Part shown: positions 57,402-62,940 of the stretch, piece by piece
Position numbering within the stretch: the stretch's first letter is position 1
How the letters are laid out: the number at the start of each line of letters is the position of its first letter
Assembly (NCBI RefSeq): GCF_003207895.1
Contig: NZ_NKUB01000004.1
Coordinates: forward strand, 124,001-188,000
Source: Komagataeibacter swingsii
Lineage (GTDB): Bacteria > Pseudomonadota > Alphaproteobacteria > Acetobacterales > Acetobacteraceae
Reading direction: 5' to 3'
Length of the DNA: 64,000 bases
Notes under the pieces: generated by a model
What the model saw: the letters and a program-made list of their open reading frames with translations, nothing else
Told to the model about the DNA's origin: nothing
Database searches by the model: none
Translations under genes and position numbers: made by a program

Positions 57402-58064
57402 ATGCCTGACCCACATTATGCACGCATGACGCCGTTGAACTCACCGCCGGAACCCGCACGGGAACGCAGTGAACGCTCATCCAGCCGCAGGCTGGTTGTG
57501 GTGGGGCTGATCGCGGCCGTTGTCGCGGGCGGCGGCCTGGGCACGGGCGGGTTCATGGCCGCGCGCGAAGGCGGCAGCGGCAGCCAGACGCCCCCCGTCG
57601 CCGCCGAGGCGGGCGGCGGTGGCGCCGGCGACGGCACGCACCTCATGCTGAACGCCCCGGTGCAGAACCGGCCCGACATGATGGGCCAGATGCCCATGAT
57701 CTCGCCCGACCGCGCGGCTGAGATGCTGCGCCAGACATCCTATACCATACAGCAGCAGGCCGAGATCATGGCGGCGCTGAAGCGCCGCGACATCATCCTG
57801 GCCGACATGCCCATGTATGACATGACCGGCGGCAACGCGGTGGTGAACGTGCAGTCGCTTGGGCTGGTGCAGACCGTGCACCTTGGCCCGCAGCCCAAAA
57901 GCGTCATCCTGCCCATCCGCGTGGCGGGCAACGTGTCCATCACCGCGGCGGGGGACCCGGGGCCTGCGGGCATCCATGCGGGCGCGGTGTTCGTGCCCGG
58001 CCCCACGGCGCTGCCCGTGCTGACGCGTGACACTGAAATCGTGATTGGGGTAGTCGTGCAATGA
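57402..58064 (+). CDS. Single-TM protein of unknown family, first gene of the AAA+ cluster
   Basis: 220 residues from ATG 57402 (or 212 from ATG 57426). A short basic N-terminus rich in Ser/Arg/Glu, one TM helix (RLVVVGLIAAVVAGGGLGTGGFMAA), a Gly/Ala linker, a Met-rich helical stretch (MMGQMPMISPDRAAEMLRQTSYTIQQQAEIMAALKRRDIILADMPMYDM, in parts) and a beta-rich end (VILPIRVAGNVSITAAGDPGP...TRDTEIVIGVVVQ). Topology predicts cytoplasmic N-terminus and periplasmic body. Its stop overlaps the AAA+ start by 4 bp (ATGA), so the two are co-translated. I recognise no family. Confidence 0.72.
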   Translation: MPDPHYARMTPLNSPPEPARERSERSSSRRLVVVGLIAAVVAGGGLGTGGFMAAREGGSGSQTPPVAAEAGGGGAGDGTHLMLNAPVQNRPDMMGQMPMISPDRAAEMLRQTSYTIQQQAEIMAALKRRDIILADMPMYDMTGGNAVVNVQSLGLVQTVHLGPQPKSVILPIRVAGNVSITAAGDPGPAGIHAGAVFVPGPTALPVLTRDTEIVIGVVVQ

Positions 58065-59335
58065 AACCGCTCTATCCGGCGCTAATGGAGCGGCTGGTAC
58101 CCCTCATCATGGTCATTTTCCTGGTGCTGGGCAGCTTTCAGGCCGCGATGGCGTTGCATCTTTCGCTCGCCAGCCTGCGGCATTTCATGGAATGGTGTGC
58201 CCCGGCCTATCCGGTCGTGGCAGCGGCCAGCGCCTTGCTGGCGCTGACCGGGCTGTGGTTCGAGAACCGGGCCGAAAAACTGGCCCGCAAGGGGATCCGA
58301 CGCAGACGGGGATGGATAATGGACGTACTCGCCAGGCTGACCAATCGCAGCGCGCTGGAGGAAATGCTGGCGCGCGAACAGAAAGAAACCGTGATCGACG
58401 CGGAGGAACTGGCCGCAAGCCTGCGTGCCCGCGTGATCGGCCAGGACCAGGTGTGCGAGGACGTGGCGACCCAGCTGCGCCGCCGCCTGGCGCTGCAGGT
58501 GCGTGGCAAGCCGGTGGGCATCTTCCTGCTGGCAGGCCCGCCGGGCACGGGCAAGACCTACCTGTCCAAGCAGCTTGCGCGCCAGCTTGACCGCCCGCTG
58601 CTGAACTTTGACATGACGCAGATGAGTTCCCCCCACGCCGCGACCCAGCTGTTCGGCTCGCCCAAGGGATATGTGGGGTCGGATACGTACGGCAAGCTGA
58701 CCGGCGGGCTGAAGGAAAAGCCCGACGCGGTGGTGCTGCTGGATGAGATCGAGAAGGCGCATCCCGACGTTTTCAAGAAGTTCCTGACCGCGTGGAACGA
58801 TGGCCATGTGACCGAGGCCTCCACCGGGCAGCAGATTTCCACCGTGCGCTGCATCTTCATGCTGACGTCCAACATCGCCACCGAAGCCCTGACCGAAATC
58901 GCGGACCGGCTGGTGGATGAACCCGACAAGATGCGCGCCGAATCGGTCGAGGCCCTGCGCCAGGCCGGTTTCGCGCCGGAAGTGCTGAACCGCCTGGACC
59001 GCATTTTCATCTTCCGCCCGCTGGAAGGACTCGACATCGCGCGTGTGTCCGCCCTTGAGATCGAGGCCATGATCGACAGCTACGGCCTGAAGGTCGAAAC
59101 CGGCGGCATCGACCCCGCCCTGCTGTTTGAGGTCATGCGCCGGCAGGACCGCATGGGACCCGCCGCCAGCGCGCGTGACCTGGCGCGCTCCATCGAGGAC
59201 ATGATAAGCGACTCGCTCATCACCGCCCGCCAGCAGGGGGCGAAACTGGTGCGGGTCGTTTCCAGTGAAGATGGCGTCGTGGCTGAAATCGCGGATGCCG
59301 ACCGCACCGCCCAGCGCGCGCCGATCAGTTCCTGA
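58061..59335 (+). CDS. Membrane-anchored HSP100/ClpB-D2-like AAA+ ATPase
   Basis: 424 residues. Two TM helices (about 11-32 and 49-67) precede one AAA+ module of the Clp/HSP100 type: GQDQVCEDVATQL box, Walker A GPPGTGKT (159-166), pore loop GYVG (203-206), Walker B VVLLDEIEKAHPDVF (Asp228, Glu229), sensor 1 Asn271, Arg finger Arg311 in LNRLDRIFIF, and a ClpB-like C-terminal subdomain with sensor 2 Arg372. No N domain, no D1, no visible ClpP-docking tripeptide. The retained Tyr pore loop implies polypeptide threading at the membrane. Start overlaps the upstream partner gene by 4 bp. Biological role is not known to me. Confidence 0.82.
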   Translation: MKPLYPALMERLVPLIMVIFLVLGSFQAAMALHLSLASLRHFMEWCAPAYPVVAAASALLALTGLWFENRAEKLARKGIRRRRGWIMDVLARLTNRSALEEMLAREQKETVIDAEELAASLRARVIGQDQVCEDVATQLRRRLALQVRGKPVGIFLLAGPPGTGKTYLSKQLARQLDRPLLNFDMTQMSSPHAATQLFGSPKGYVGSDTYGKLTGGLKEKPDAVVLLDEIEKAHPDVFKKFLTAWNDGHVTEASTGQQISTVRCIFMLTSNIATEALTEIADRLVDEPDKMRAESVEALRQAGFAPEVLNRLDRIFIFRPLEGLDIARVSALEIEAMIDSYGLKVETGGIDPALLFEVMRRQDRMGPAASARDLARSIEDMISDSLITARQQGAKLVRVVSSEDGVVAEIADADRTAQRAPISS

Positions 59336-59401
59336 CCCATGCGGAGGGTATCCCGTTTCCGGCCCCGACCAGGCGTCGCGGCCCGTGGCATGGACTGCTG
59401 A

Positions 59402-60346
59402 ATGTCTGCTTTTTCGCGCTTATGGCACCGGGCGCCGGTATGGCGGTTCTGCCTTTACATGATCCTGCCGTTCACGGTGCTGACGCTGATCTTCCCGCCA
59501 GCCTACCTGACGCGCCTGATCCCCCGGCTGTCGGCGCTGTCCGCCGGCATCCATAACCGGCTGGGCCTGCATGACGCCCCGGCCAAGGGTGAGGGCGGCG
59601 GCGGGGACGGCAATGGCGAGGACGGCGTCATCACCATGATGCCGATCACCGACCGGCTGACCAAGGCCATCCCGTTTGCCGGCCGCATCCTGCCGCTGCC
59701 CGAGGGTACGTGGCACCCGGTCATGAACATCATCAACGGCCCGCATGGGGAAGTGCTGGAAAACGTCCTGATCCGCGTGGAAGGCCATGTCGTCACCGGC
59801 ATGATCGGGGCGGAGGGCAGCACCCAGCCCGTGCCGGAAACGGCCATTACCTCCATCGATTCCAGCTGCCATGACGACCGGAACTACATGTCGCGCGTGC
59901 TGACCGCGCACCCGCCGGCAATGGAATGCTGGTTTACCACGGCGGTCTATCCTGCCTCGATCAACCGCACGGCCATCATCGCCAACCGGCTGAAGGAAGA
60001 AGGGTTCATCCTGCCGCCCGTGCTGCTGAAGGCCGGGTGGAGCTACAGCACGCCCGCGGGCGACCACAACGTCAATGTCGAGACGGTGACCATCTTCCTC
60101 AACCCCGTGAACACCGACAGCACCAAGATGCTGCGCACGCCCGATTACTGGGCCAAGGACACGCTGGGCCAGCAGCCTGCCGCCAGCGATTTCGTCAAGC
60201 GGACGAATACATGGATGGCCGGCTGGGCGCAGGTCCTGCATGACGGGTTCAACAGCGACATGCTGGCCTCAAGCGACGAACAGCGCGCCCGCCTGGCGCA
60301 TGATCCCGCGGCCCCCCAGCCGGGGCGGGGCAGCCCGCTGGACTGA
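59402..60346 (+). CDS. Single-TM protein with large extracytoplasmic domain, third gene of the AAA+ cluster
   Basis: 314 residues. One N-terminal TM helix (FCLYMILPFTVLTLIFPPAYL), then a Gly/Asp-rich linker and a folded domain of about 230 residues with mixed alpha/beta character, containing SIDSSCHDDRNYMSRVLTAHPPAMECWFTTAVYPASINRTAI and GWSYSTPAGDHNVNVETVTIFLNP. Two Cys (SSC and ECW) could pair if periplasmic. Starts 66 bp after the AAA+ gene in the same direction. No family is recognised; co-occurrence suggests a substrate adaptor or partner, which is inference. Confidence 0.7.
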   Translation: MSAFSRLWHRAPVWRFCLYMILPFTVLTLIFPPAYLTRLIPRLSALSAGIHNRLGLHDAPAKGEGGGGDGNGEDGVITMMPITDRLTKAIPFAGRILPLPEGTWHPVMNIINGPHGEVLENVLIRVEGHVVTGMIGAEGSTQPVPETAITSIDSSCHDDRNYMSRVLTAHPPAMECWFTTAVYPASINRTAIIANRLKEEGFILPPVLLKAGWSYSTPAGDHNVNVETVTIFLNPVNTDSTKMLRTPDYWAKDTLGQQPAASDFVKRTNTWMAGWAQVLHDGFNSDMLASSDEQRARLAHDPAAPQPGRGSPLD

Positions 60347-60370
60347 GGAGCCGCGCCAGAACCTTTTCCC

Positions 60371-60988
60371 CTATGCCGCCACGGGCAGGCAGGTGTCGCG
60401 GAACAGCGCGAAGGCCAGCGCGCGGTGGCTTATGGTGTTCTTTTCCGCATCGCTCATATCCGCAAAGCTGCGGCCGCCGCCGCCGGGGGCGAAGATGGGG
60501 TCGTAGCCATGGCCGTTCTCCCCATGCGGCGGCCAGATGACATGCCCGTCAATGCGCCCCTCGAAGGTTTCGGTCCGCCCGTCGGGCCAGGCTAGGCACA
60601 GGACGGAAATGAACCATGCGCTGCGGTCGGGGTTATCGCCCATCCGGTCATGGATGCGGCGCATGGCGTCGGGGTAATCCTTTTCCGGGCCGGCCCAGCG
60701 GGCGGAGAAAATACCCGGCGCGCCATCCAGCGCCGCGACACAGAACCCGGAATCATCCGCCAGCGCGGGCAGGTTTGCGGCTTTCGCGGCCGCCATGGCC
60801 TTGAGGGCGGCATTGCCGGTAAAGCTGTCGGCGGTTTCCTCCGGTTCGGGCAGCGACAGGTCGCCGGCCGGGATGACACGGATGCCATATCCCGCCAGCA
60901 GTGCCGCGAATTCCGCGATCTTGCCCCGGTTATGGGTGGCCAGCACCAGCGTGTCGCCACGGTTCAGGCGGGTGGGGGTTGCGTTCAT
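60371..60988 (-). CDS. rdgB: dITP/XTP pyrophosphatase (RdgB/HAM1)
   Basis: House-cleaning enzyme hydrolysing non-canonical purine NTPs. 205 residues. [68 protein letters not shown] (in parts), [34 protein letters not shown] are diagnostic, including the catalytic Asp in ADDSG. Its start overlaps the rph stop by 4 bp; rph-rdgB pairing is common in alphaproteobacteria. Confidence 0.97.
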
Positions 60989-61713
60989 GCCTTTAATGCC
61001 TCTTCCACGATGGCGGTCTGGATACGGAACAGTTCGGCCGTGCCGGTGCGGGCCAGCCGCATGAGGGTGTTGAACTGGGCTTCGGTAAAGGGGTCCTTTT
61101 CCGCCGTGCCCTGGATTTCCACAATGCCGCCATCGGCGGTCAGGACAAAATTGGCGTCGGCGCTGGCCGTGCTGTCTTCCCTGTAGTCCAGGTCCAGGAC
61201 CGGGCCGTCATCCGTCAGCCCGCAGGATATGGCCGCGACCTGCCCCTTGATTGGCAGGGCGGGCAGGGTGCCGTCGCGCACCAGTTTTTCCAGCGCCAGG
61301 CGCAGGGCCACCCATGCCCCGGTAATGGCGGCGCAGCGCGTGCCGCCATCGGCGTTCAGCACGTCGCAATCCACCGTGACCGAGATTTCACCCAGCGCCT
61401 TCAGGTCCACCACCGCGCGCAGGGCGCGGGCGATCAGGCGCTGGATTTCCTGTGTGCGGCCGGTCTGCCGGCCTTTCGCGGCCTCGCGCTGGCCCCGGTT
61501 GTGGGTGGCGCGCGGCAGCATGCCGTATTCCGCCGTGACCCAGCCCTGTCCCTTGCCGCGCAGGAAGGAAGGCACGCGGGTTTCGACCGTGGCGGCGCAC
61601 AGGACTTCGGTCCCGCCCATGCGGATCAGGGCGGACCCTTCGGCATGGCGGGCGAAGCCGGGCTGGATGAAGACGGGACGCAGGGCGTCAATGGCACGGC
61701 CGGATGGGCGCAT
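60985..61713 (-). CDS. rph: Ribonuclease PH
   Basis: Phosphate-dependent 3' trimming of tRNA precursors. 242 residues from ATG 61713 (GGAG 10 nt upstream). [20 protein letters not shown], then [48 protein letters not shown] and [22 protein letters not shown] are characteristic, as is [20 protein letters not shown] (metal/phosphate site). First gene of rph-rdgB, divergent from hrcA, the standard arrangement in this class. Confidence 0.98.
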
Positions 61714-61866
61714 GGGCGTAAAACTCCGCAAGGTGATGGGGCGGCATAACCTGCAACCCGTTCCTGTTTCCAGTCCCGCGTGGGCAGGACGCGGCAGGAT
61801 CTGCTAGGATGGGGACGCGGATGGTCCGCATGGTGAATGGATACGTGCAACACGGGAGGCATGGCG

Positions 61867-62940
61867 ATGGAAAACCGACCACAGGTATCGCAGCCCGCCC
61901 TGCTGTCCGGGCTTGATGCGCGCTCTGCCGCGATCCTGCGCGAAATCGTGGAACAGTATGTCGAAACGGGTGAGCCGATGGGGTCGCGCACCCTGTCGCA
62001 GCGCCTGCCGCTGTCGTTGTCGCCCGCCACGATTCGCAACGTGATGGCGGACCTGACCGATGCGGGGCTGCTGTTCTCGCCGCATGCCTCGGCGGGGCGG
62101 CTGCCCACGGAAAAGGGCGTGCGGCTGTTTGTCGACGGGCTGCTGCAGTTCGGCAGCCTGAGCGAGGAGGAGCGCGAAAGCATCGCGGGGATGCTGGACG
62201 TGAAGGGCCGCTCGCTGGAGGATACGCTGGCGCAGGCGTCGTCCATGCTGTCGGGCCTGTCATCCGCCGCGGGCCTTGTCATGGCCCCCAAGAGCGACGG
62301 CACCACCATCAAGCATATCGAATTCGTGGCCCTTGGCCCGGGGCGCGCGCTGGTCATCCTGGTCAGCGCGGACGGGCAGGTGGAAAACCGCGTGATCGAG
62401 ACGCCGCCCGGCTTGCCGCCCTCGGCGCTGGTGGAGGCGGGCAATTACCTCAACGCCCACCTGTCGGGCCAGACGCTGGACCGCCTGCGCGAGACGGTCA
62501 GCACCGACATGACCGCCAACCGCAACGAACTGGACCACCTGACGGCGGAGGTGGTGGAAAGCGGCCTTGCGACATGGAGCGACGCGGATGAGCGCGGCGG
62601 CACCCTGTTCATACGCGGGCAGGGCCGGCTGCTGGCCGATGTGACGGAAATCGAGCGCCTGACCACGATCCAGATGCTGTTCGAGCGGCTGGAAACGCAG
62701 GAGACCATGCTGCGCCTGCTCGACCTTGCGCGCGAATCCGAAGGGGTGCGGATCTTCATCGGGGCCGAAAGCGGGCTGTTCGGCATGGCGGGCATGTCGG
62801 TGGTCGTGGCCCCGGCGCGCACCGATTCCAACCGCATCGTGGGCGCGATCGGCGTGATCGGGCCGACGCGCATCAATTACGCCCGCATCATTCCCGTGGT
62901 GGATTACACGGCGCGGGTGATCGGGCGCATGCTGGGCTGA
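61867..62940 (+). CDS. hrcA: Heat-inducible transcription repressor HrcA
   Basis: Represses chaperone operons at CIRCE operators, with GroE modulating its activity. 357 residues from ATG 61867 (GGGAGG 7 nt upstream; ATG 61861 also in frame). Winged HTH region [75 protein letters not shown] (in parts) and C-terminal [21 protein letters not shown] are diagnostic. grpE, often downstream in alphaproteobacteria, is replaced by an aldo/keto reductase. No CIRCE inverted repeat is visible upstream. Confidence 0.97.

Follow-up and report, generated by a model that had tools for sequence, protein, structure and literature searches.

A putative membrane-tethered HSP100 machine with a detachable ATPase core in acetic acid bacteria

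Here, we analysed a three-gene cluster of Komagataeibacter swingsii (family Acetobacteraceae) at positions 57402–60346 of a 64,000-nucleotide window (contig NZ_NKUB01000004.1, positions 124,001–188,000), in which an AAA+ gene is flanked by genes for two membrane proteins, denoted P1 and P3. Tentatively, we read the cluster as a membrane-bound HSP100 machine whose engine can be detached: the transmembrane (TM) part of the AAA+ protein and P3 would form a permanent scaffold, from which the ATPase core and P1 have been removed as a unit, with at least two conversions to a pseudo-ATPase. On this reading, a cytosolic unfoldase would have as its partner, on the other side of the inner membrane, a periplasmic disulfide domain that is widespread, unnamed and marked by a PLPxGxW motif. 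The three genes follow one another on the plus strand:

57402–58064, plus strand: P1, 220 aa from 57402, an open reading frame with a single TM segment
58061–58064, plus strand: 4-bp ATGA shared by the P1 stop and the AAA+ start
58061–59335, plus strand: AAA+, 424 aa, hydrophobic hairpin at residues 12–67, HSP100/Clp D2-type domain at residues ~105–390
59402–60346, plus strand: P3, 314 aa, single TM segment and large extracytoplasmic domain
59417–59446, plus strand: P3 juxtamembrane motif RLWHRAPVWR, probably cytosolic

Co-conservation and joint loss of the motor motifs and P1

An earlier note on this DNA had proposed two dedicated envelope partners for the AAA+ protein, and this holds. We compared 80 named loci of the Acetobacteraceae, all of which show the same P1-AAA-P3 order and strand (80 of 80). 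They are the best-matching of 128 loci that encode a relative and were found via AAA+ peptide patterns, and so comprise close relatives only (AAA+ identity 73–100%; 93–100% in the nearest, those of Komagataeibacter). The ATGA overlap recurs in 56 of these loci, suggesting translational coupling of P1 and AAA+, and the AAA+-to-P3 spacing is 3–169 bp.

Among 150 genomes of the family, 36 matched in the P3 search and 42 in the AAA+ search; G021, G035, G063, G072, G087, G112 and G138 were dropped from the latter, their matches being confined to the ClpB-type core, which left 35. These are the P3 genomes minus G049, whose P3 gene starts at contig base 73. P1 was found in 31 of the 36 P3-positive genomes (whole-genome profile search, E <= 0.01), the five misses being G049, with P3 at the contig edge, and four genomes with a broken motor. 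Hence, the 35 AAA+ genomes divide into 31 with P1 and four broken ones without it, with no mixed case. In G101, the P1 match beside an intact motor is short (positions 66–146 of 203). P1 was matched in 82 of 150 genomes of the order; the match in G003 (E 8e-4), which has no AAA+ protein in the AAA+ search, is probably spurious. In G126 (L164, 7490–9792), P1 and the motor motifs are present and P3 is split into several frames; the N terminus of its AAA+ protein is shifted relative to that of its close relative G046, through either disrupted genes or sequencing error. The entire set can also be absent: neither P1 nor the P3 domain is matched in G155, a 1.7-Mb genome that shares its genus code with many carriers, nor in the genus g41 genomes G040, G122 and G150–G153 (2.0–2.5 Mb). 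The window's own genome measures 3.73 Mb.

The four broken genomes, G061, G136, G070 and G116, have an open AAA+ frame (402–472 aa) in which the ATPase motifs are broken and the pore loop is missing. The Walker A sequences read GPAGTGKK, GPTGTGKN, GPAHTGKG and GPKGTGKK, respectively, with the Lys kept and the next Thr lost; G061 has lost both residues of the Walker B acidic pair, and the other three genomes have lost one apiece. We predict that these copies are devoid of ATPase activity, with nucleotide binding still possible. Identity to the window protein in the pore-loop region is 5–20% in the broken copies versus 80–100% in 21 intact ones, and in region 125–146 it is 59–63% versus 72–100%. 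The hairpin is retained in the form of hydrophobic segments, and P3 with its motif persists in all four genomes. No P1 was found in them by the whole-genome profile search, and nothing P1-like is among the frames of >=70 aa listed upstream of the broken AAA+ genes. Between G061 and G136, the AAA+ core is the most relaxed part of the cluster (37% identity, compared with 47% in the TM part and 61–66% in the flanks). Because nonsynonymous change in this pair is low (0.25–0.42 per site) relative to near-saturated synonymous change (pS 0.71–0.83), we conclude that the broken genes are still maintained as proteins.

These losses did not happen once. In a NusA+InfB tree (25 rows; NusA of G136 is partial), G116 lies beside G029, a genome of the same genus with P1 and an intact motor (support 100/100), and G061 and G136 group together (100/100); a topology that unites the four broken rows in a single clade is rejected (p-AU 2e-51). 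Accordingly, at least two independent co-losses occurred; two are firm, resting on supported branches, and three is the fewest on the best tree.

The AAA+ protein and its membrane partners

Residues 86–390 of the AAA+ protein match ClpB 533–834 in NCBIfam (E 2e-51) and, nearly as well, the D2 domain of ClpA (E 5e-48), and the closest PDB domains by sequence are the D2 domains of ClpE, ClpB, ClpC and ClpA. In agreement with the earlier note, neither an N domain nor D1 was found ahead of this match, which starts at ClpB 533 and is preceded only by the hydrophobic hairpin (segments 12–30 and 49–67) and a linker; an M domain is missing as well. A strongly basic stretch follows the hairpin; by the positive-inside rule, it places the ATPase domain, by prediction, in the cytoplasm. 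Walker A, Walker B, an aromatic G[YF][VS]GS[DE] pore loop, sensor 1 and the Arg finger, the hallmarks of an HSP100/Clp D2-type domain, were found in 131 of 139 collected AAA+ copies, a set that includes a Microvirga plasmid relative and in which several genomes are present more than once; the other eight are the four broken genomes, each counted twice. The motor motifs are likewise kept in a 23-copy alignment. Together with the N-terminal hairpin, these motifs uphold the view that an HSP100-type motor is tethered to the membrane, and in intact lineages the ATPase part is the slowest to change (85–92% identity over residues 76–420 versus 64% in the TM part, Neokomagataea versus Gluconobacter).

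The motor seems to lack proteolytic connections, also as proposed before. The FtsH-type zinc protease motif HExxH occurs in 0 of 139 copies, and IG[FL], the ClpP-docking loop, in nine, each time solely within the TM2 region and in none of the 139 outside it; the ClpA-like protein of the window's own genome has IGF at the aligned ClpP-loop site. No protease gene lies in the cluster. The genome holds separate genes that, from their sequence, we take to be ClpB-, ClpA- and Lon-like.

For P1, the start is uncertain: it has 220 aa if translation begins at 57402 and 212 aa if it begins at 57426, the codon for Met9, which aligns with Met in 54 of 57 orthologs. A hydrophobic segment spans residues 31–49, the charge distribution suggests an N-in/C-out topology, and the C-terminal half is conserved up to the terminal VIVQ. 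In P3, the hydrophobic segment (residues 13–31) is followed by an extracytoplasmic domain with the PLPxGxW motif and two invariant cysteines, C156 and C176; the best-conserved part of the protein is the juxtamembrane stretch RLWxRAPxWR (mean majority 0.84 versus 0.32–0.53 elsewhere). For neither protein did any match to a family in Pfam, NCBIfam or PDB exceed the cut-off, and profile searches of both against Pfam and PDB gave chance-level matches only; in NCBIfam, the TM region of P1 has one weak match (E 0.001, 19 bits, cut-off 100). No mutual relationship of P1 and P3 was detected by hhalign.

When the P3 profile was widened with two anchor-less P3-like proteins from carrier genomes (L168:8125–9069; L169:7276–8268), it matched 11 of 289 genomes of the class, the window's own among them. 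The ten matching frames that we read have mostly signal-peptide- or lipoprotein-like N termini by eye and share a PLPxGxW-like motif and mostly two cysteines; eight of the ten were scanned and gave no Pfam or NCBIfam name besides SHOCT or DUF2061 tails. Such a domain, apparently secreted, is seen in several alphaproteobacterial families, at times duplicated or with DUF2061 or SHOCT behind it (L186–L195; L168; L169). In the 45 family genomes where P1 or the true AAA+ protein was not found (the marginal P1 match of G003 being set aside), the widened profile gave three matches, one of them marginal, and plasmid searches with three P3-domain relatives gave none. Because anchor-less relatives exist elsewhere, the best reading of P3 is that it combines an anchor with a periplasmic domain that is older and has no name.

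The sole relative of the AAA+ protein outside the family, among the matches listed, is encoded by plasmid pMVF16-3 of Microvirga sp. VF16: a 412-aa protein with its own N-terminal hydrophobic segments and an intact motor (51% identity over residues 86–403). In a 12-row tree, this protein and those of the family form a group apart from ClpA, ClpB, ClpK and a phage Clp protein (support 100/100). Ten bases past the stop codon of the plasmid AAA+ gene starts an unannotated 64-codon frame (L122:16001–16195), its ATG preceded by the purine-rich GAGGAG, that carries RRLWNEASVWRW and one TM segment and then stops. This mini-P3 keeps only the RLWxxAxxWR-TM module of P3, without the periplasmic domain. 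In a search of 5763 frames with the P3 profile, it is recovered at E 1.4e-4, as the weakest of 111 matches and the only one outside family loci, in a frame set that held just two non-family loci, L122 and L123. No relatives of mini-P3 were found on other plasmids, apart from one chance match. P1 was not found directly upstream of the Microvirga AAA+ gene; the gene there is not P1, and by eye we take it to be ASCH-like. From the retention of the motif beside the motor gene, we infer that RLWxRAPxWR docks P3 on the AAA+ protein.

Genomic setting and distribution

Divergently oriented to the left of the cluster are genes that we take, by eye, to be rimP, nusA, ylxR and infB; rimP, nusA and infB share a locus with the cluster in 88 of the 101 loci searched and are not in the cluster locus of five divergent carriers (L159–L163), in one of which (L160) the cluster adjoins what look to us like pcm, tolC, a popZ-like gene and valS. 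Directly 3' of P3, at 60346–62940, lie genes that are presumably rdgB and rph (convergent with the cluster) and hrcA, and in K. diospyri (L002) this place is taken by genes that by eye are LysR-, aconitase- and ccmAB-like. Because rdgB, rph and hrcA are absent from the fetched flanks of all 80 named loci (tblastn, E <= 1e-5) and K. diospyri has other genes there, the 3' end of P3 appears to be a rearrangement breakpoint. A scan for promoters and terminators, which was not used, found a single promoter-like site against 0.5 expected and a single terminator-like site against 1.6 expected.

Strict AAA+ searches, limited to E <= 1e-60 across 289 genomes of the class and to E <= 1e-58 across 349 genomes of the phylum, matched one and two genomes, respectively, all from this family; such limits would miss broken copies, five to six candidates were scored per genome, and few genomes were sampled per family. 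Among plasmids, 2128 records match; the 20 listed comprise the Microvirga one and 19 at ~31–35% identity, and the five of these 19 that were inspected (H7, H2, H3, H4, H17) are all long Clp-type frames of 633–964 aa matched in their C-terminal part.

Proposed function and competing explanations

We consider it quite possible, if slightly short of probable, that the intact cluster encodes a protease-free motor for extraction or remodelling at the inner membrane. The AAA+ protein would form a hexameric ring that hangs beneath this membrane from the N-terminal TM hairpins of its subunits, with the N-terminal face turned towards the membrane. This face of D2 is where ClpB carries D1 and where substrates enter, and a hairpin at the entry face would make outward from the membrane the natural pulling direction. 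In intact copies, the aromatic GYVGS loop would grip polypeptides and pull them from the membrane or dismantle membrane complexes; since protease motif and ClpP dock are both missing, the product would more likely be released than degraded. P3 may be the permanent partner, which would dock on the membrane part of the AAA+ protein through its RLWxRAPxWR collar and TM helix, with its disulfide-type domain in the periplasm. P1, kept within the family only where the motor is intact, would for that reason belong to the powered module, as a regulator or client of the motor. Given the joint loss of P1 and the motor motifs with the AAA+ frame and P3 kept, and given the Microvirga mini-P3, the scaffold seems to consist of the AAA-TM part and the P3 anchor, and the powered module of P1 and the motor.

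Several observations weigh against this reading. The cluster is kept without motor motifs in four genomes, so that pulling cannot be its only selected role and ATPase activity is not always what selection acts on; the Walker A Lys remains in these copies, and their loss of ATPase activity is a prediction from sequence. Their hairpins are only 20–28% identical in sequence to the window's. The independent co-loss pairs are few (sign test p 0.5), and one clade of G061, G136 and G070 is not rejected (p-AU 0.33). The Microvirga motor is intact without an adjacent P1, which counts against strict coupling of the two, and G126 combines P1 and a motor with a split P3. The three genes are therefore not a single inseparable machine: they are co-conserved, but motor motifs and P1 are lost jointly where the AAA+ frame and P3 stay, and Microvirga has only a motor and a P3 anchor. 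The ATPase motifs are retained in the intact copies and broken in four genomes that nevertheless keep the gene. The earlier note's interpretation is thus supported in part, its role in extraction or envelope quality control being a proposal.

The strongest competitor, which we find somewhat doubtful, is that the cluster is mainly an envelope scaffold: the AAA-TM part and P3 would be structural or sensory and act in the periplasm, with the ATPase and P1 as accessories for tuning or recycling, that is, ATP-driven assembly or disassembly of a P3 complex. The retention of P3 and a broken AAA+ protein after loss of P1 and the motor motifs (ratio of nonsynonymous to synonymous change, pN/pS, ~0.3–0.5 for G061 versus G136), the open AAA+ and P3 frames in G070 and G116 after the same loss, and the anchor-less relatives in other alphaproteobacteria of P3's periplasmic domain, a domain that probably has a function of its own, all fit such a scaffold; the slow change of the ATPase part in intact lineages does not, nor does the Microvirga relative, which keeps the motor and is missing the periplasmic domain. 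Adaptor-fed degradation, in which extracted membrane proteins are passed to ClpP or another soluble protease, is improbable. It would suit the closest solved domains, several of whose parent proteins (ClpE, ClpB, ClpC, ClpA) feed ClpP, and it is at odds with the missing IG[FL] loop, present in the genome's own ClpA-like protein, and with a cluster that has no protease gene.

We regard as very improbable that the cluster is an anti-phage or plasmid-borne defence module akin to single-domain ClpB-like candidate defence proteins. The PADLOC models PDC-M37B (E 2e-23) and DolB (E 1e-19) do match the AAA+ domain, and the sole outside relative found sits on a plasmid, but the matches cover the shared ClpB-like core only, leave out the hairpin, are weaker than that to ClpB in NCBIfam and extend to neither P1 nor P3; assignment to the Dodola or PDC-M37 candidate systems, which would take whole-model matches and their partner genes, was rejected. 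Moreover, the cluster has rimP, nusA and infB in its locus in 88 of 101 cases; none of the 148 phage records with a Clp-type match reaches 60% identity or covers over 80% of the query; and viral contigs gave no match to the window protein and one distant soluble protein without a hairpin to the Microvirga query. That the AAA+ protein is a truncated ClpB between chance neighbours, for which only its D2 homology speaks, is scarcely credible in view of the conserved order and start/stop overlap, the joint absence of P1 and motor motifs and the mini-P3 beside the plasmid copy.

To our knowledge, HSP100 motors are soluble. The cluster protein shares with the D2 domains of ClpB, ClpA, ClpC and ClpE the domain type, GYVG pore loop, Walker motifs and Arg finger, but differs from these proteins in its hairpin, its partner genes and the missing N domain, D1, M domain and ClpP loop, and lies on a branch separate from ClpA and ClpB. 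We accordingly rejected its assignment to the ClpB-type disaggregases, which have N, D1 and M domains, to the ClpP unfoldases of the ClpA/ClpC/ClpX type, which have the docking loop, and to the FtsH-type membrane proteases. FtsH, the standard bacterial membrane-anchored AAA+ protein handling membrane proteins, belongs to a different AAA+ clade, and the cluster protein differs from it in lacking HExxH. Msp1 has a single N-terminal TM segment and belongs to the classic AAA clade, unlike the Clp D2-type cluster protein with its two TM segments and two partner genes. Nevertheless, Msp1 offers a likeness in mode of work: it is described as a membrane-anchored homohexamer extracting membrane proteins (PMC12793716), and the cluster protein has, by sequence, an N-terminal membrane anchor and a single AAA+ domain without protease, with a predicted ring and putative extraction. 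The excerpts available for FtsH and mitochondrial FtsH-like proteases describe membrane-anchored AAA+ proteins handling membrane proteins (PMC7949044, PMC7226402). The broken copies recall LAP1, a Torsin partner with an AAA+ fold devoid of nucleotide-binding motifs according to the part of the source available (PMC4358337), but they are orthologs that replace the motor and not partners of it; Torsins, in the same partial account, are eukaryotic proteins of the endoplasmic reticulum and nuclear envelope, unlike the bacterial cluster, and the Torsin Pfam match is weak (24.2 bits, cut-off 27). The earlier note had allowed for a family already described; among the literature matches listed, in a coverage mostly without subscription papers and preprints, we found neither such a family nor a membrane-anchored bacterial HSP100 protein with such partners. 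In the portion available of the report on the Gluconobacter oxydans B58 knockout collection (PMC12041372), locus names could not be matched to the cluster genes.

If our reading is correct, a protease-free, membrane-tethered HSP100 protein would be a new route of membrane-protein remodelling in bacteria, found in acetic acid bacteria, which are exposed to acid and ethanol at their envelope. In the natural engine-out variants, the function of the scaffold would be set apart from that of the motor with no engineering needed, and a minimal two-gene version for reconstitution would be available from the Microvirga plasmid.

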